A DNA stretch of 64,000 nucleotides from Kordiimonas pumila. Its GTDB lineage: Bacteria; Pseudomonadota; Alphaproteobacteria; Sphingomonadales; Kordiimonadaceae. Both the position numbers and the translations under genes were made by a program. Below are positions 3,209 through 10,486 of this stretch, one piece after another. The notes under the pieces are model-generated. The model worked only from the letters and a program-made list of their open reading frames with translations, did no database searches and had not been told where the DNA came from. The stretch is taken from NCBI RefSeq assembly GCF_015240255.1, contig NZ_CP061205.1, positions 3,458,501-3,522,500 on the forward strand. Direction: 5' to 3'. Position 1 is the first letter of the stretch. Every line of letters starts with the position of its first letter.

Positions 3209-3916
3209 TTATAGCAGGCCCATATTTACAGCGGCAAGCGTTGCCTCAGCGCGGGAACAAATCTCTAGTTTGCGGTAAATAGTTTTTACATACCCTGCAA
3301 CCGTGTGTTCACTAATCCCCAAAATGCGGGAAACATCACTGTTTCTAAGCCCCTTGGCTAAAAGTCGCAACACCTCTATCTCACGGGCTGTTAAGCTTTC
3401 AGCCTGAAGATCGCCGGTAATGGTTTGCTGGTTTTTCTTCTGAAAATAGGCCATCATGCGCTGGGCAATTGAAGGCGAAAGCGGCGGCTCACCCTGCTGA
3501 ATTCTCAGCAAATATTTGATCAAAATTTCTGGCTGCTGATCTTTCAACAGATACCCTTTTGCACCGGCCGCAATGGCATCAAACAAATGAGCATCATCGT
3601 CATAAATTGTTATAACAACGGGCATAACATTGGGGTAGTTTTCGGCCAGATCGCGCACCAGCGCTATCCCCGAACCATCCGGCAAACCCAGATCAATGAG
3701 CGCAATTCTAGGGGGACCTGCTCTATCCGTTTTTTCTAGTGCCCAATGTTCTGAAAGCCACTTTCTGGCTATTGTCAGATTTTCCGCGCGGGCTATAGAA
3801 ATGCCCTCAAAGGCATCTTCCAGAACACCCGCCAGCCACGCGCAGGTTTGCGGAATATCCTCAACAACCAGCCCTTCCATCAGCGGCGGTGTTTTTTCCA
3901 TTGCCTGCTCTAGCAT
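3209..3916 (-). CDS. LuxR/NarL-family DNA-binding response regulator
   Basis: The 235-residue product has an N-terminal receiver domain (residues about 15-135) with acidic residues VVED, the phosphoacceptor D75 in IALIDLGLPDG and the conserved lysine in GYLLKD near residue 125. A C-terminal LuxR-type helix-turn-helix follows (residues 174-235; LTAREIEVLRLLAKG and SEHTVAGYVKTIYRKL). It is a transcription factor activated by phosphorylation. It starts 3 bases after the stop of the histidine kinase upstream, so the two are a co-transcribed two-component pair. The regulon is unknown; the cbb3 operon and the FecR/Slam-like genes are the closest candidates, by proximity only. Confidence 0.93.
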   Translation of the reverse strand: MLEQAMEKTPPLMEGLVVEDIPQTCAWLAGVLEDAFEGISIARAENLTIARKWLSEHWALEKTDRAGPPRIALIDLGLPDGSGIALVRDLAENYPNVMPVVITIYDDDAHLFDAIAAGAKGYLLKDQQPEILIKYLLRIQQGEPPLSPSIAQRMMAYFQKKNQQTITGDLQAESLTAREIEVLRLLAKGLRNSDVSRILGISEHTVAGYVKTIYRKLEICSRAEATLAAVNMGLL

Positions 3917-3919
3917 GCT

Positions 3920-6100
3920 TTATACTGCCATCTGCGCGAGCGAAAATTCAATTTGCACGGCATAGCCTTTCTCTGTGACCGGGAACTCTAGCCGACCACC
4001 AATTTCTTCTGCCCTGCGGCGCATATTCGGGATACCATTCCCCCCTGAAGAACTTGCCTTGCCCACCGCTGTTTCCAGCATAAGGCCTGCGCCGTCATCA
4101 CTAATGCAAATACGAATAATATTCCCAACAGCCTCAACCGTGACATCCACCGCCTTAGCACCAGAATGGACAATAATATTGCTAATAATTTCACGGTGAA
4201 TAGAAATATAATTTTTATACACCTGATAATCAAGAAGGTCTTCCCGCTCCTCAGAGGCTGAAAGTGGCCAATTAAGCTCGATCCCTGCAGCTTCAAGCCT
4301 GATATGGCTTTCATGGCGCAGCGCCGCAATAAGCTGATAAAGCGGTATGGTACCGCCAATCAGCCCGCTTACCACAGTGCGCATATCAGAAAGTGTTTTC
4401 CTGATTGTAGATTTAATGTCTTGCATATTTTCTGTATGCAAGCTGGTTAAAAGCCCGGCACCAATATCATCGTGCAGGTCCTGAGCAATGCGCTTGCGTT
4501 CTTCTGTTTTGCCGCGCTCATAAGCATCACGGCTTTTTTCTGCATGACGCATTAATGTTATAATTTGCTGCGCCAAATTCAAATCTGCCGGGCTAAAAAG
4601 CGCTCTGCCCCGGTGCGAATAACACATAGCAAGCGGTGCAATACCGGCAAGCGCTGGTAACTGCAGTTCAATACCGTCGCGCTTTACAACAACCTGCCCT
4701 GCATCATGGCTTAGTTCGCGTATTTCAAGGGGATCAAAAATCGCATATAATAATGTTTTCCAGCGTTTTACCCTTTCCTGCTGGGTACTGGTAAAGGCAA
4801 TTTCAATCACCTGATGAAACAGGGCATGATTTTCCACATTTCTGTGCCCTAGCATCTTACGCCACAATATATCACGTAGCGGTAAATACAGAATACCGAT
4901 AAGCAATACAGAAAGCCCGGTTGAAAAGCTGGCACCAAAATCAAGCGCGTAAATGATGAGCGCATCAAGAACGACAAACAAGATAAGCGCGGCCATATAG
5001 AAAATGATTCTGAAAGCCCATGTATCAAGCTCAAAGAGCCGGTAGCGCCGCAGTCCAAGCGCCAGCCCAATGTAAATCAGCAGGAAAAAGACAAACATCC
5101 AGCCCTGAGAAACCTGCGGGCTTTCCTGTATGACAAGCGGCAGCATAGCAAGCGATATAAAGGCGCCCGCACAAACTACAACAGATAAACCAAGCCACCG
5201 CAAAACGGCTCTGTTATGCGGGTCTTTTCTGGTTGCAAACCATTGCACCACCACAAGAGCCACAATCAGGAACATTTCTGCCGCGCCCACAATCGGCGGC
5301 AAATAAAGGCCGGAAAATAACGGCCAACCCAACCCGTATCTTTGCAGAATATCCAGTATCACAACTGGCGCAAAAAGCACTGGCACAAAAAGCAGATAGC
5401 GCACCTTCACAAGCTGCTTTGGGTAAACGAGAAACATGGCTGGTATTGCAATACCAAAGGCAACTGCACCGCTATAGTTTAATGTTGACAATAGCTTGAA
5501 CAGTGCACCATCAAACGCAAGTTCCCTTGTGCTATATATTGCCGCTGCACAGGCAAACGTCAGGGTGCTAAGCCCAGAAAGCGCAAAACAGCGGGCCCCC
5601 CAGTCGCTTTGCCTTAAGGACCAAACCCATGTACTAATCAAAAAGCTTGCAGCCCCAACAAGTATCTGCACCCAAAACACCGCAGGCAAGGATGCCGCAG
5701 GCCTGCTTGTGGGTACAATGGCAACCGTTCTTTCCTGTTCATCGCCGTACCCAAGCGTTAAAATAACTGTTTTACTTTGCAGATGGGACCATAAGGCTGT
5801 TTGCCGCTCAAGAAAGGCACGAACAGTCTTATTATCGTTCAGCAAATCCGGCTCTTCCACAATATCTGTCGCAGTTAGAGGAAAACCGTTCACAGCCTTC
5901 AGTATTGCGGGAACATCGATATCTTCTGCTGGCGAATTTGAAACAGTATCAATGATCACAACTTGGCCTATCACAGCATCAGGCGTTAATGTAAGACCCA
6001 TCCACTGCACACTGGTTGCAAGCCAATAACATATGCCGACCGTTGCCAGTGACAATAACACCGCAGCCTGCACAACCCTAGTAGGCGAATAAAACCTCAT
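3920..6100 (-). CDS. Membrane sensor histidine kinase (HisKA_3 type) with PDZ-like N-terminal segment
   Basis: The 726-residue protein begins with a membrane helix, then a periplasmic stretch (about residues 40-135) whose pattern, VIGQVV..NSPAED..LKAVNGFPL, resembles a PDZ fold. Six or more hydrophobic segments (about 140-410) follow, then a cytoplasmic kinase region. The H-box RKRIAQDLHDDIGAGLL contains the phosphorylated histidine (about residue 543), and the ATPase domain has an N-box (EIISNIIVHSGA) and glycine motifs DDGAGL and GGNGIPNMRRR, the HisKA_3/NarX-type arrangement that pairs with LuxR-type regulators. I chose the ATG at 6100, which has GGAG 8 bases upstream; an in-frame ATG at 6121 would add seven residues. 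The signal sensed is unknown. Confidence 0.88.
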   Translation of the reverse strand: MRFYSPTRVVQAAVLLSLATVGICYWLATSVQWMGLTLTPDAVIGQVVIIDTVSNSPAEDIDVPAILKAVNGFPLTATDIVEEPDLLNDNKTVRAFLERQTALWSHLQSKTVILTLGYGDEQERTVAIVPTSRPAASLPAVFWVQILVGAASFLISTWVWSLRQSDWGARCFALSGLSTLTFACAAAIYSTRELAFDGALFKLLSTLNYSGAVAFGIAIPAMFLVYPKQLVKVRYLLFVPVLFAPVVILDILQRYGLGWPLFSGLYLPPIVGAAEMFLIVALVVVQWFATRKDPHNRAVLRWLGLSVVVCAGAFISLAMLPLVIQESPQVSQGWMFVFFLLIYIGLALGLRRYRLFELDTWAFRIIFYMAALILFVVLDALIIYALDFGASFSTGLSVLLIGILYLPLRDILWRKMLGHRNVENHALFHQVIEIAFTSTQQERVKRWKTLLYAIFDPLEIRELSHDAGQVVVKRDGIELQLPALAGIAPLAMCYSHRGRALFSPADLNLAQQIITLMRHAEKSRDAYERGKTEERKRIAQDLHDDIGAGLLTSLHTENMQDIKSTIRKTLSDMRTVVSGLIGGTIPLYQLIAALRHESHIRLEAAGIELNWPLSASEEREDLLDYQVYKNYISIHREIISNIIVHSGAKAVDVTVEAVGNIIRICISDDGAGLMLETAVGKASSSGGNGIPNMRRRAEEIGGRLEFPVTEKGYAVQIEFSLAQMAV

Positions 6101-6226
6101 GCCTGTCTCCACCCCTGGCATTTCCCCCAGAAAGACAGAGGCTTACCCCTCTCTTTCGCCGTATTATTATATTCGTATAACACTGGATACATTTACACAA
6201 AACCACATACTAGGTACAAATACTTT

Positions 6227-6259
6227 AAGGCAGAGGGCTTTTATGTCACCCTCTGCCTT
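6227..6259 (-). terminator. 11-bp perfect hairpin after the FecR-domain gene
   Basis: The arms AAGGCAGAGGG and CCCTCTGCCTT are perfectly complementary around an 11-base loop. The hairpin lies 22 bases after the stop of the FecR-domain gene. Read on the minus strand it is followed by AAAGTATTTG, so there is no proper U-tract; it may stabilise the 3' end of the mRNA or be a weak terminator. Confidence 0.5.
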
Positions 6260-6280
6260 ATGCCATAGTATCGCTCTAGC

Positions 6281-7849
6281 TTACTTGCCAAACATGGCAG
6301 CACCTTCAATGGTGCCCGGTGCGCCGCCGCCGCCGCCGGACCAGATCATATAACTGATACCCGCATAGTCAGCGTTTGGACCCGCCAAAAAGCCATTAAT
6401 AATTGCTTCACAGCTTCCACCGGCTGATGAACAGGCTGCACCGCCGCCGCTAATAGCCACATTACCGTAAAATGAAGCCGCACCCGACCGGAAAGTCATC
6501 CCTGATTGAGATGGATCAGCAAGGCCCCCAGTTGATACAATATCATATACTGCATCACCCGGCATATCGACAGATAGGTCAACCCCAACTGCTGGTGTAC
6601 TGCCAAAAGCAACCGCGATATCGCCCGTTAACGTACCTGGCGCTCCTGATGAAGATGCGCCCCACGCAGGCGAGGTGGCTGCAATCAGGCCATAAGTTGC
6701 CGTGCCACTTTGCGGTAAAGTTTCTGTTTCAAGGCCAATCGCATAATGAAAGCCTTCATCAGCATCAAACGTAAACGTATTATTGAAGTAAGAGCCTGCT
6801 GTATCGCCGTCAGACCAACGTCCAATTGCGATATATTCATTACCCGCCACTTCTGACGCCGTGGTTGTACCAATTTCGGGCGATTCAGATGTATTTGTAG
6901 TCCAGATATAGGATGTCAATTCACCTGAGGTGCCGAATGTAGCATCTACGGGACCGCGTGAATCTATGCCAATTTGCGACCCAGCATACACGAGGAAATA
7001 TGGCCCGGCATTGAGCGGTGCTGATACACCTGTTGTTGGTGTATCCGGCGTATCCGGCGTGTCTGGTGTATCCGGTGTATCCGGTGTATCCGGCGTGTCT
7101 GGAGTGTCTGGAGTGTCTGGAGTGTCTGGAGTGTCTGGTGTATCCGGTGTGTCTATTTCACCATTCAAAATACTTGCAAGAACAAAAGGTATACCACCTT
7201 CCCCGCGCACGTCTCCAACAGCAAATACTGTCTCAAGAGTATCGAACCATGCTTGGTAATCGCCGGGCTGTGCCGCCAGTAATTGTAAACGGTCCCGAAT
7301 AAGTTCTGGCAGACTGTTAATGTTTGTAACCTGCGCGCTTTCGCCGCCCTCAACAACAAAAGTACCCGCATTATTTGTAACAGTAACGGTACCACGGCCA
7401 ACGCTAACCGTCATGCCATCGTCAACACTCACCAAAAACTCAAGGCTATCAACTTTAACATCACCGTAAGGCGTGCTTATTTCATAAGAAATTGTGCCGG
7501 AAACCGACCCCGTGCCACCAATGGCACGCATGCCACCATGTTCCATTGTCATTTCAAACGTGCCTGTTGCCGCATTGAATGCGTCCACCGTCAGGGCCGA
7601 GTTTGGCTGAAGTGAAACAAAGCTTTGGTTGTTCAGGCGAATTTGCAAACGGCCTGATGATGTATTGATTGTATCGCCCACAGAAATGGACTGGCCTTTG
7701 CTGGGAAGTGTCGTTGACCCTATAGAAAAAGCGACTTCGCCGATTGACTGTGCATGCACACTTACCGGCGCAACAGGTAAGAGCATCAGAGCGGAAACAG
7801 CCAGCCCTAATATTTTACCACTGGTTTTGAAATGTATAGTATTAAACAT
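6281..7849 (-). CDS. Secreted FecR-domain protein with Asp-Thr-Pro repeat and TbpB-like C-terminal domain; candidate Slam cargo
   Basis: The 522-residue protein has a Sec signal peptide (about residues 1-33, ending VSVHAQ) without a lipobox. Residues about 40-190 form a FecR-like domain (GDTINTSSGRLQIRL, followed by FVSLQPNSAL and YGDVKVDSLEF). A 39-residue tract of 13 Asp-Thr-Pro units (about 232-270) links to a C-terminal domain of about 250 residues ending GFLAGPNADYAG...IEGAAMFGK. That ending resembles the C-terminal barrels of transferrin-binding-protein-B-like proteins exported by Slam. The start at 7849 has GGGAGA 8 bases upstream; an upstream in-frame start would overlap the preceding gene. 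It lies 16 bases after the TPR/barrel gene. The cargo role is inference; the FecR domain is better supported. Confidence 0.75.
   Translation of the reverse strand: MFNTIHFKTSGKILGLAVSALMLLPVAPVSVHAQSIGEVAFSIGSTTLPSKGQSISVGDTINTSSGRLQIRLNNQSFVSLQPNSALTVDAFNAATGTFEMTMEHGGMRAIGGTGSVSGTISYEISTPYGDVKVDSLEFLVSVDDGMTVSVGRGTVTVTNNAGTFVVEGGESAQVTNINSLPELIRDRLQLLAAQPGDYQAWFDTLETVFAVGDVRGEGGIPFVLASILNGEIDTPDTPDTPDTPDTPDTPDTPDTPDTPDTPDTPDTPDTPTTGVSAPLNAGPYFLVYAGSQIGIDSRGPVDATFGTSGELTSYIWTTNTSESPEIGTTTASEVAGNEYIAIGRWSDGDTAGSYFNNTFTFDADEGFHYAIGLETETLPQSGTATYGLIAATSPAWGASSSGAPGTLTGDIAVAFGSTPAVGVDLSVDMPGDAVYDIVSTGGLADPSQSGMTFRSGAASFYGNVAISGGGAACSSAGGSCEAIINGFLAGPNADYAGISYMIWSGGGGGAPGTIEGAAMFGK
7038..7154. 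repeat. 13 tandem copies of a 9-bp unit encoding Asp-Thr-Pro
   Basis: Thirteen consecutive 9-base units of the form GGN-GTN-TCY (plus strand) encode (Asp-Thr-Pro)13 in the FecR-domain protein on the minus strand. Units 8 to 11 are identical (ggagtgtct) while the others differ at third positions. That points to recent slippage expansion inside an older repeat. Because each unit is 9 bases, gain or loss of copies changes linker length without a frameshift. Confidence 0.95.
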
Positions 7850-7865
7850 TTTTCTGTCTCCCGGA

Positions 7866-9200
7866 TCAGAAGCTAAGACGCAGGCCGACCTGCGCCGTAA
7901 AGCGATCATAATCATTAATGACAATGTTAGATTTATTTCTGGAGTAACTGAGTTCAGGTACAAGGCTGATGCTATCAGTTAGTTGGTAGTTTACTGCACC
8001 AGACAAGCTCCAGTTATCGTCAGATCTGCCAGTCAAAAACAAAGGATCGGTACCGCCGTAGTTACGGTTTTCATAGGCAGCTGTTGCACGCACAGACGTT
8101 TCAGCGTTTAAAGAATAGGCCACAGTCGCAGACCCACCCCAGAAGTTATGCCCCAAATCAGGCCTTGCGCTTGCTTTTTCGTCTTCAGTACCAACATTTG
8201 CACGCAGCAGAACACGCCCGGGAGCAGATTTGGCAGCGCTGCCAAACTTAAAGACAGCACTCGCGCCGCCTGAATACCGCACAGCATCACGAATAGGCTG
8301 GTCAGGATAATCCAGATCAAGAACCTGCGCAAAAGCACCGACCATGAAAGTGTCGGATAGAGCATGATCCCACTGACCAGAAAGGCCGTAAGCACGTCTA
8401 AACTGATCGTAGCCAACCGTGAATATCTGCCCCTGCACTGCAACGCTGAATTTGTCAGCCCCAGACGCATGAACATATCCAAGAGAACCAGAATAAACAC
8501 CAATATCCAGATCATCAGCAGAGAAATGAACTTTTTGGGACAGGTTTACACCAGCAACGATTGCAGCGCTTTCATTAAGCTGGTGACGGTAGCCAAAGCC
8601 TGCACTAAACTGCATATATTCGTCGCCCTGCTCGCGGGCAGCGGCAGACAAATTTGCCATCCCGAGGGCTGCAAAAGCTGGTATGAAAATCTGCGTTTCT
8701 TCAGTCGCGCTATTGATATTGTCGTCATATCCAACAGCAACCCCAACATACCCGCTAAACCCGCTTTGTGACGCCTTAGGCGCCTCAAGAGCTGCAAGAT
8801 ACCGCTCAACACCTGTTAGAACTTCTGGTGGAAGCTGTTTTTGACGCGCTGTCTGGAATTCTTGCTTTGCTGACAAGCGTTCGCCCAGCACATAATAGTT
8901 ACGAGCGATCGCAACACGGGCATTTGCATCATCTGGGCGTGTTGCCACGGCACGCTCAAGTGCAAAAATAGAAACTTGAGGCATGCCAGCATCCAGTGCG
9001 GAGACCCCTAGTAAAAAATCATACTCAAAATTACCGGCATATTGTCGTTCTTTACTTGAAAGCATTTGATATGCTTCCGTAAATTTTCCAGCCTTGACCA
9101 AACTTTCGGCCTGTTCAAGAAAAGTATCTGCGGCCTGTGTTCCCGTGGCACACAAAAAACTCATCAGATAGCCTGCGGCTATCCAGTTTCTGCATTTCAT
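7866..9200 (-). CDS. Outer-membrane TPR/beta-barrel protein resembling a surface lipoprotein assembly modulator (Slam)
   Basis: The 444-residue protein has a signal peptide (residues about 1-23, ending TGTQA), a periplasmic TPR-like region (about 25-140, with LEQAESLVKAGKFTEAY, DFLLGVSALDAG and ALERAVATRPDDANARVAIARNYY), and a C-terminal domain of alternating amphipathic strands (about 150-444) ending in phenylalanine, as outer-membrane barrels do. TPR plus a barrel opening VGVAVGYDDNINSA matches the layout of Slam/SlipAM proteins, the translocators of type 11 secretion. The start has GGAGACGC upstream. It is the first gene of a two-gene operon with the FecR-domain protein, which would be its cargo (inference). 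It could instead be an unrelated TPR porin. Confidence 0.68.
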   Translation of the reverse strand: MKCRNWIAAGYLMSFLCATGTQAADTFLEQAESLVKAGKFTEAYQMLSSKERQYAGNFEYDFLLGVSALDAGMPQVSIFALERAVATRPDDANARVAIARNYYVLGERLSAKQEFQTARQKQLPPEVLTGVERYLAALEAPKASQSGFSGYVGVAVGYDDNINSATEETQIFIPAFAALGMANLSAAAREQGDEYMQFSAGFGYRHQLNESAAIVAGVNLSQKVHFSADDLDIGVYSGSLGYVHASGADKFSVAVQGQIFTVGYDQFRRAYGLSGQWDHALSDTFMVGAFAQVLDLDYPDQPIRDAVRYSGGASAVFKFGSAAKSAPGRVLLRANVGTEDEKASARPDLGHNFWGGSATVAYSLNAETSVRATAAYENRNYGGTDPLFLTGRSDDNWSLSGAVNYQLTDSISLVPELSYSRNKSNIVINDYDRFTAQVGLRLSF

Positions 9201-9505
9201 TTGCGTCTCCAGATCCTATGTAAGTTATCATTGTTAAGGCTGTGGTTTCCCCCGAAGCTCGCCTTAAACGTGATATACCCGAGCACCGCCCCGGCACGTA
9301 TCCCCTAAACAGGGTATGTGTATGCTTTTTCTTGGGTATTTCCCTTTGACACCTTGGCGCATGCCTATACTGGCAGCACAATAGCTCGATTTTTAAAGTC
9401 AAATTCACCCCTATTCCGGGGATATGCCCTTTCTGCCCGCCCTTTATAGTTACGCCTTTGCCGGTTGCGGCATTCAAAGGCATCAATCAAGGAAAAGGGG
9501 CCAAT
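9201..9505. promoter_or_regulatory. Divergent intergenic region with GGGTAT repeats
   Basis: This 305-base gap separates the Slam-like operon (minus) from the secreted protein gene (plus). It holds ATACCC at 9275-9280 and two GGGTAT elements at 9312-9317 and 9334-9339, whose starts are 22 bases apart (about two helical turns). A TTGACA at 9346-9351 is followed by TATACT at 9366-9371, a short 14-base spacer that would need an activator. No gene or RNA was recognised in it. Confidence 0.4.
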
Positions 9506-10486
9506 ATGCGTATCAACAAGTCTATTGCACTGGGGCTAACTGCCATAACTGCTGTGCACCTAATTTCAGCACCCGCATCTGCAAAATCATTCAAAGCGAA
9601 ATACTATAAAGAATGTTACGCCGAAGTTGACGCGGTCGCAGATCTTGTAAAGCCCACCACAAGTCTGAGTGATACCGCAGGAAAAGCGACTGGTCTTTTA
9701 GGCTCGGTTGGCAGTTTTGCCGGCATTGGCGGTTTTGGCGGTAGCCTGTCAAAAGCGGCAACCACTATGCAAAAGATAAACAAATATAGCGGCCTGATTG
9801 ACGATGTTGGCGGCTTTAGTGCCCAAATGGCAACAGACCATCCAGACCCAAATGATCGTTTTGCTGCATACGGCACCCACATGAGCAATGATGCAACAGA
9901 CCTTGAGAAGGTACAGTCTGCAGTTACACAGTCACAAGAATGCTATAACACAGCGTTCGATACACTTTCCGCACAGGTTGCCGCTGGCGAACTGAAAAAA
10001 AGCAAAGCAAAAAAACAGCTTGGTGAAATTCAAAAAGGCTCAAAGGCAACTGGTGATGTTCTCATAAACGCAATGGATCATATTAATAAAAACATTACCT
10101 CCTACGATCAGGTTTTAAATACAGAAACCCAAGCCTTTCAGCCCAATATACAATCCCTATTTGCCGCACAGCAAAATAGTGTAAATGCGGGAATTACCCA
10201 AAGCGCTTATAATCAGGTTGCCACTATTGGCGGTGTTGCTGGTGCGGGTACCGTATCAAGCATCGCAAATTTGCGCGGGGCAACTGCCGGGGGCATGTTC
10301 AATGCAGGTACTCTTTCAGGTCTTGCTGGCATGCTCTCTAACGAAGCAAATGCAGACGATACCTCACAGCAAGGCCTTCAGGCTGTAGCCGCCTCAAGCC
10401 AGCAGTATCTGGGTATCTACGAAAGCCTGCAAGGTACAATTGAAAAACAGCGCTTGCTTGAAGTGAAAGTTAATAAAGGCCTTTAG
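9506..10486 (+). CDS. Secreted protein of unknown function
   Basis: I do not recognise this 326-residue protein. It has a clear signal peptide (MRINKSIALGLTAITAVHL, cleavage after APASA near residue 28), so it is periplasmic or secreted. Two cysteines (in YYKECYAE and SQECYN) may form a disulfide. The rest is rich in Ala, Gly, Ser, Gln and Asn, with a glycine-rich stretch near residues 60-85, predicted helical segments, and a second glycine/alanine-rich stretch around residues 245-290. I chose the ATG at 9506 because AAGGAAAAGGGG precedes it and the signal peptide begins there; an upstream in-frame start at 9458 would spoil the signal. It is divergent from the Slam-like operon and followed by a good terminator. 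Confidence 0.7.
   Translation: MRINKSIALGLTAITAVHLISAPASAKSFKAKYYKECYAEVDAVADLVKPTTSLSDTAGKATGLLGSVGSFAGIGGFGGSLSKAATTMQKINKYSGLIDDVGGFSAQMATDHPDPNDRFAAYGTHMSNDATDLEKVQSAVTQSQECYNTAFDTLSAQVAAGELKKSKAKKQLGEIQKGSKATGDVLINAMDHINKNITSYDQVLNTETQAFQPNIQSLFAAQQNSVNAGITQSAYNQVATIGGVAGAGTVSSIANLRGATAGGMFNAGTLSGLAGMLSNEANADDTSQQGLQAVAASSQQYLGIYESLQGTIEKQRLLEVKVNKGL

Follow-up and report, generated by a model that had tools for sequence, protein, structure and literature searches.

Slam proteins, which consist of TPR repeats and a DUF560 barrel, carry TbpB-like surface proteins across the outer membrane, and FecR domains are normally found in periplasmic sensors and signalling proteins. In a 64,000-nucleotide stretch of the Kordiimonas pumila genome (hereafter the window), a Slam-like gene lies next to a gene for a secreted protein with both a FecR domain and a TbpB-like C-terminus, raising the question of whether the two form a type 11 secretion (T11SS) unit that brings a FecR domain to the outside. 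The features of this locus are collected in Table 1.

Table 1. Features of the SlipAM-cargo locus, numbered from the first nucleotide of the window
Feature	Position	Strand	Evidence
LuxR-type response regulator of the adjacent kinase (possible accessory, weak evidence)	3209..3916	-	Pfam
Histidine kinase directly downstream of the cargo gene (possible accessory, weak evidence)	3920..6121	-	Pfam
Putative cargo, 522 aa, ATG start at 7849	6281..7849	-	ORF, Pfam, model
TbpB/haemophilin-like C-terminal module of the cargo, about residues 286-522	6284..6994	-	PDB profile, model, Foldseek
13 x Asp-Thr-Pro linker of the cargo, residues 233-271	7037..7153	-	count, Tandem Repeats Finder (7037-7154), low pLDDT
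FecR domain of the cargo, residues 59-155	7385..7675	-	Pfam PF04773, Foldseek
Sec-type signal peptide of the cargo, residues 1-33, no lipobox Cys	7751..7849	-	by eye
SlipAM/DUF560 (Slam-type) outer-membrane protein, 444 aa	7866..9200	-	Pfam PF04575, model
Barrel of the SlipAM protein, residues 147-443, 14 long strands	7872..8762	-	model, SlipAM profile
TPR-like helices of the SlipAM protein, residues 26-139	8784..9125	-	model, Pfam

The assignment of the putative exporter to the SlipAM/DUF560 family is supported. Pfam PF04575 matched residues 150-440 with 44.2 bits (cut-off 22, E 2.3e-11), so the Slam-like identity that the original prediction had given this protein withstood the DUF560 profile check. 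The predicted structure (422 aa, 45 sequences, pLDDT 94.9) contains 14 long strands, preceded by a TPR region of eight helices, and the last residue of the protein is Phe, which bears out the TPR-like helices and the Phe-terminated barrel expected from the sequence. Known T11SS outer-membrane proteins (Slam/SlipAM) have an N-terminal TPR region and a barrel of 14 strands; the protein thus combines membership by the curated profile with this architecture. For its TPR region, Pfam returned ANAPC3 slightly over the cut-off (27.7 vs 27.2 bits) and TPR_19 below it (22.6 bits, cut-off 25). No second SlipAM gene was found in the 4.04-Mb source genome.

Whether the barrel might instead be an unrelated porin, as the original prediction allowed, received a divided answer, since SlipAM is the best full-barrel profile for the exporter whereas Foldseek placed BcsC and ordinary porins at the top of its ranking. 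Because no Slam entry was among the 50 Foldseek matches listed, this ranking speaks neither for nor against SlipAM membership. It nevertheless fits a reading in which the SlipAM-like proteins of the clade do not export at all and act as TPR-porins with a different task, for instance the passage of polysaccharide as in BcsC, and the neighbouring gene encodes a periplasmic protein; BBP2_2, which exceeded the Pfam cut-off on the last 86 residues (28.7 vs 23.7), and a weak EpsL match (34.6 bits, cut-off 275) point the same way. We consider such a role improbable in view of the full-barrel profile, the little that the fold ranking says, and the T11SS-type module of the neighbouring protein described below.

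The cargo gene follows downstream on the same strand after a gap of 16 bp (7850-7865). Its product was inspected by eye for the signal peptide and agrees with the secreted, non-lipidated protein proposed originally, as do the length of the gap, the count of exactly 13 Asp-Thr-Pro units, the C-terminus GPNADYAG...GAAMFGK, and the FecR domain, which scored 38.6 bits against PF04773 (cut-off 24, E 1.5e-9) and was the sole family detected in the Pfam scan of this protein. In Foldseek, the domain matched PupR and anti-sigma structures, and the linker was modelled with low pLDDT. The GIRGT motif, present in the FecR domains of relatives, is absent from the window copy. FecR is degenerate in the Sphingomonadales cargo proteins, whose N-termini emerged as distant FecR relatives in a profile comparison (probability 94.4, E 9.4e-8). 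The source genome has eight FecR genes; the seven besides the cargo gene lie in open frames 356-402 aa long.

We then compared a profile built from 51 C-terminal modules with the PDB, and the best five of its eight matches were TbpB, LbpB, haemophilin, TbpB and TbpB, with modest E-values (0.0015 to 0.31). When the mature cargo was modelled (489 aa, 68 sequences, mean pLDDT 79.7), most of the C-terminal module exceeded a pLDDT of 90, and mature residues 334-488 held eight strands of at least 8 residues and two short ones, a number that, as a strand count only, fits an eight-stranded barrel. At E <= 0.001, Foldseek returned 19 matches, namely 15 TbpB/haemophilin chains and four FecR-type anti-sigma structures; the TM-scores by target reached 0.52 at most, partly because the query has several domains. 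The TbpB-like C-terminus of the original prediction is therefore upheld by the PDB profile and Foldseek but not by the Pfam TbpB-type models, which gave no match to the window cargo even at E <= 1 and none to 10 related cargo proteins at E <= 0.1. Taken together, the profile and the model support a predicted homology of the module to TbpB and haemophilin at modest E-values. A Cys pair and an Arg-Trp are near-invariant among the modules, of which the cargo proteins have one to four where detected.

Next, we asked whether the pairing recurs. A SlipAM search yielded 249 stretches and 89 relatives, from which 80 loci were kept; two of the three query rows had been found via cargo similarity, although it was SlipAM that led to the 80 loci. 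The records are titled Alpha-, Beta- and Gammaproteobacteria, with single ones titled Campylobacterales and Pedobacter. In 78 of the 80 loci, fewer than 600 nt separated the SlipAM stop from the start of an ORF with FecR, the TbpB-like module or both (FecR was seen in 58 loci, the module in 65 and a single ORF with the two in 44), as counted in the same ORFs on which the FecR and module HMMs had been iterated and with less than 3.5 kb of sequence after SlipAM at 10 loci. The two loci outside the 78 are L050, where the module ORF starts further downstream, and L088. When ten related cargo proteins were scanned with Pfam, FecR was over the cut-off in eight, below it in L045 (18.7 vs 24) and without a match in L008. 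A LysM start suspected by eye in the L173 cargo gave no Pfam match at E <= 0.01. Two of the records with the SlipAM-cargo unit are titled Klebsiella pneumoniae (L029) and Pedobacter (L071, metagenome-assembled), possibly through binning or naming errors. A further gene that recurs downstream (L023:6311-8209 and 13 other loci) has a weak AMP-binding match (25.3 bits, cut-off 29.9).

An independent view came from 299 Pseudomonadota genomes, of which 55 had a SlipAM match, 50 of them over the Pfam cut-off. Leaving aside the place in the window itself and six sub-cut-off matches, and counting fragments of one gene as a single place, we found a FecR/module cargo directly adjoining SlipAM on one strand at 20 of 62 places (14 downstream and 6 upstream), among which L143 is counted twice and L140 is a classical one; L008 and L009 were known beforehand from the cargo search. 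Beside the 20 top-scoring SlipAM places (L120-L139), two of them with little downstream sequence, the HMMs found no such cargo, the module model being insensitive to classical TbpB barrels; in L140, it detected a haemophilin-like protein directly upstream of the classical Slam (E 2.8e-4). One could suppose that a SlipAM gene merely came to lie beside an unrelated FecR protein, given that FecR is common and that seven other FecR genes exist in the source genome. However, the adjacency at 78 of 80 loci and, separately, on one strand at 20 of 62 SlipAM places makes the probability of this negligible, and we regard a chance neighbourhood as refuted because the pairing recurs.

We also built a SlipAM tree with 103 rows, for which the search was short and in which some branches are long. 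It comprised the window, 41 of the 80 loci (the even-numbered ones and L045) and every sampled place except L136, whose ORF is broken (61 of 62). One branch with an SH-aLRT of 100 held 54 rows, namely the window, all 41 of these loci and 12 sampled places, and cargo was present in all of them except L088. The 12 sampled members, which enter this clade independently of the 80 loci, all have cargo downstream, and the branch lies apart from the high-scoring classical Slams of the sample. A separate four-member branch (L146, L148, L150, L154) has the order FecR cargo, SlipAM, CHASE2, so FecR and SlipAM may have become associated, or stayed so, on more than one occasion. The window unit is one member of a wide SlipAM clade for which, as such, we found no earlier description. 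The combination of FecR and T11SS, taken as unusual in the original prediction, is accordingly the rule within this clade and not an oddity. Since the clade spans three proteobacterial classes and offers an adjacent candidate cargo, with a barrel unseen by Pfam, its substrate is directly testable.

The CHASE2 genes raised a different possibility. Such a gene was found near 11 of the 20 cargo-adjacent SlipAM places versus 0 of the 42 others (Fisher p 3.3e-7, a value that ignores kinship, with four of the 11 from one genus and two from another, and that includes L153, where the gene is about 6.9 kb off on the other strand). Among the 80 loci, CHASE2 was in reach in seven. Beside SlipAM-FecR units, CHASE2 genes were seen directly after the cargo (L057, L062, L065), directly after SlipAM (L146, L148, L150, L154), directly after the FecR protein (L161, L164, L167), and at L163, L169 and L175, making a SlipAM-FecR-CHASE2 triad possible in the CHASE2-bearing loci. 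All five CHASE2 proteins scanned with Pfam were confirmed, with a cyclase or a hybrid kinase as output. In the source genome, no CHASE2 gene was found, and hence no FecR-CHASE2 pairing for the window. In addition, FecR proteins without a recognisable barrel, as judged by HMM and by eye, adjoin SlipAM-type genes at eight loci (L069, L077, L143, L161, L164, L167, L169, L171), although the SlipAM-like protein of L077 had no PF04575 match at E <= 0.01; each of the other cargo proteins without an HMM match is either truncated at a contig end or, by eye, beta-rich at its C-terminus. Either the barrel is not always needed, or these eight genes do something else. The barrel-less proteins and the CHASE2 association together make envelope signalling a serious rival to simple surface display.

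In one form of such signalling, only the module would be exported; FecR would stay periplasmic, acting as a stopper or a sensor, while the proline-rich linker runs through the SlipAM barrel. FecR would then signal the state of the surface or of export to a receptor in the inner membrane, namely CHASE2 cyclases or kinases in several lineages and perhaps the adjacent histidine kinase in the window. The best PDB match of the FecR profile, 5ix9 ('antifreeze protein'), is a weak one (E 0.01, first 53 positions), and its structure, which we take to be the periplasm-anchoring end of an adhesin, would fit such retention. The four genes SlipAM, cargo, kinase and regulator of the window recur in G066 (L008), and a Burkholderiales operon of a LysM-FecR protein and a CHASE2 kinase has been described (PMC5192318, in the part available), both of which are consistent with retention, as are the CHASE2 and barrel-less loci above. 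On the other hand, CHASE2 is missing from the source genome and in reach in so few of the 80 loci; the kinase and regulator were rejected as a general part of the unit, being beside SlipAM in one (G066) of eight full-length kinase relatives outside the source genome; and known T11SS cargo is thought to cross entirely. We therefore hold retention to be unlikely, though worth keeping in mind.

A bolder formulation, to which we assign a still lower likelihood, is that the clade serves as the outer-membrane arm of trans-envelope signalling. Here the FecR domain would lie inside or close to the T11SS barrel, attached to a TbpB-like module exposed at the surface, and would relay the state of that module to CHASE2 cyclases, CHASE2 kinases or other kinases of the inner membrane. 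If true, a type 11 exporter would also sense, in the manner of FecA-FecR.

The surroundings of the unit were examined as well. The divergent neighbour at 9458-10486 (+) has a weak NCBIfam match to TagQ, a type VI lipoprotein (52 bits, cut-off 300), and no relative of it except itself was found among the ORFs of the scanned loci. The block 3209-10486 is flanked by conserved cytochrome-oxidase-like genes and a dioxygenase-like gene. In two genomes of the same genus, these flanks are kept and the block is missing, its position being taken by other DNA of about 11.3 and 13.3 kb, so neither offers a clean empty site; a search of 18 same-genus genomes gave no cargo match.

At 19 of the 80 loci, a BLAST cluster of GT41-type (OGT-like, TPR) glycosyltransferase genes lies downstream on the same strand (L010, L012, L013, L014, L017, L020, part of L022-L027, L029, L032, L036, L038, L043, L046, L071), with the representative L022:10351-12735 confirmed by Pfam. 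The cargo of these loci may be glycosylated, a possibility that composition did not support: among cargo proteins with both domains detected, the linkers had alike Pro/Thr/Ser contents (0.321 in 22 with GT41 vs 0.309 in 25 without) and alike densities of N-glycosylation sequons (1.02 vs 0.92 per 100 aa). GT41 was over the cut-off in 94 of the 299 sampled genomes regardless, and no GT41 gene was found in the source genome.

Overall, the two genes probably constitute a type 11 secretion unit that belongs to a separate SlipAM clade and has a FecR-bearing, TbpB-like cargo. In this secretion unit, as its signal peptide suggests, the cargo would be carried into the periplasm by Sec. By analogy with known T11SS, the TPR-plus-barrel SlipAM protein would recognise the TbpB/haemophilin-like module and export it, and FecR, on a flexible Asp-Thr-Pro stalk, would replace the variable N-terminal effector domain of known cargo. 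This reading is grounded in what was observed of the families to which both proteins belong, of their predicted folds and of the recurrence of the pair, while the least certain step is the last one, in which FecR might be displayed or released outside. Simple export is weakened by the CHASE2 genes near many related loci, which fit periplasmic sensing better, by the barrel-less FecR proteins beside SlipAM-type genes, by the lack of a Pfam TbpB-type match, and by the degenerate FecR of Sphingomonadales cargo and the missing GIRGT motif of the window copy. With export, a domain familiar from periplasmic signalling would have been drawn into a secretion route, and the co-occurrence with CHASE2 raises the question of whether exporters of this type double as sensors.

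How does this unit compare with known systems? No paper treating T11SS and FecR together was found in a search of mainly open-access main texts, without supplements. By Pfam and fold, the FecR domain of the window cargo resembles that of FecR-type anti-sigma regulators (PupR, FecR), but the cargo differs from these in its signal peptide and its fused export-type module, and no sigma factor, as the anti-sigma architecture would have it, was found by Pfam among the scanned window neighbours. A part of the related loci pairs a predicted extracytoplasmic FecR protein with a CHASE2 receptor like the LysM-FecR operon of PMC5192318, as far as its available text goes, unlike the source genome with its lack of CHASE2; 'outer membrane', 'porin', 'TPR' and 'DUF560' have no occurrences in that text. 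According to the accessible portions of the respective papers, the outer-membrane barrel protein NsrA of S. meliloti signals via CHASE2 cyclases (PMC7529298, PMC13001267), and the targets of S. meliloti Clr include a FecR-domain protein (PMC5498481).

Among T11SS studies, a 2025 cargo survey covered two of the ten DUF560 clusters, 1 and 3, and, in the sections available, reported the known barrel to be rare beside cluster 3 exporters (PMC12282271). Its 'Sphingomonas surface proteins' and 'Psychrobacter surface proteins' share with the window cargo repeats of the proline-threonine or PTD type and one or more handle-barrel modules; they are set apart by their description, which in the same sections defines them by N-terminal repeats, unlike the FecR-bearing window cargo. 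The word 'fecr' has no occurrence in the main text (the supplementary lists lie outside this count), and the cargo of the window clade and the proteins listed there may overlap. By eye, PT-rich lipoproteins fitting that description adjoin other SlipAMs (L149, L152, L159, L160). From classical Slams, the window unit differs in the separate branch of its exporter and in a cargo without a Pfam TbpB match. Its closest likeness in layout is to TXISS-1B, HrpB with HrpC (PMC8406197, whose main text has no occurrence of 'fec'), where, in the part of the paper at hand, a DUF560 exporter likewise stands beside a non-lipidated cargo with a C-terminal TbpB-type barrel; to this plan of a soluble, haemophilin-type cargo, the window cargo adds a FecR domain and a repeat linker.
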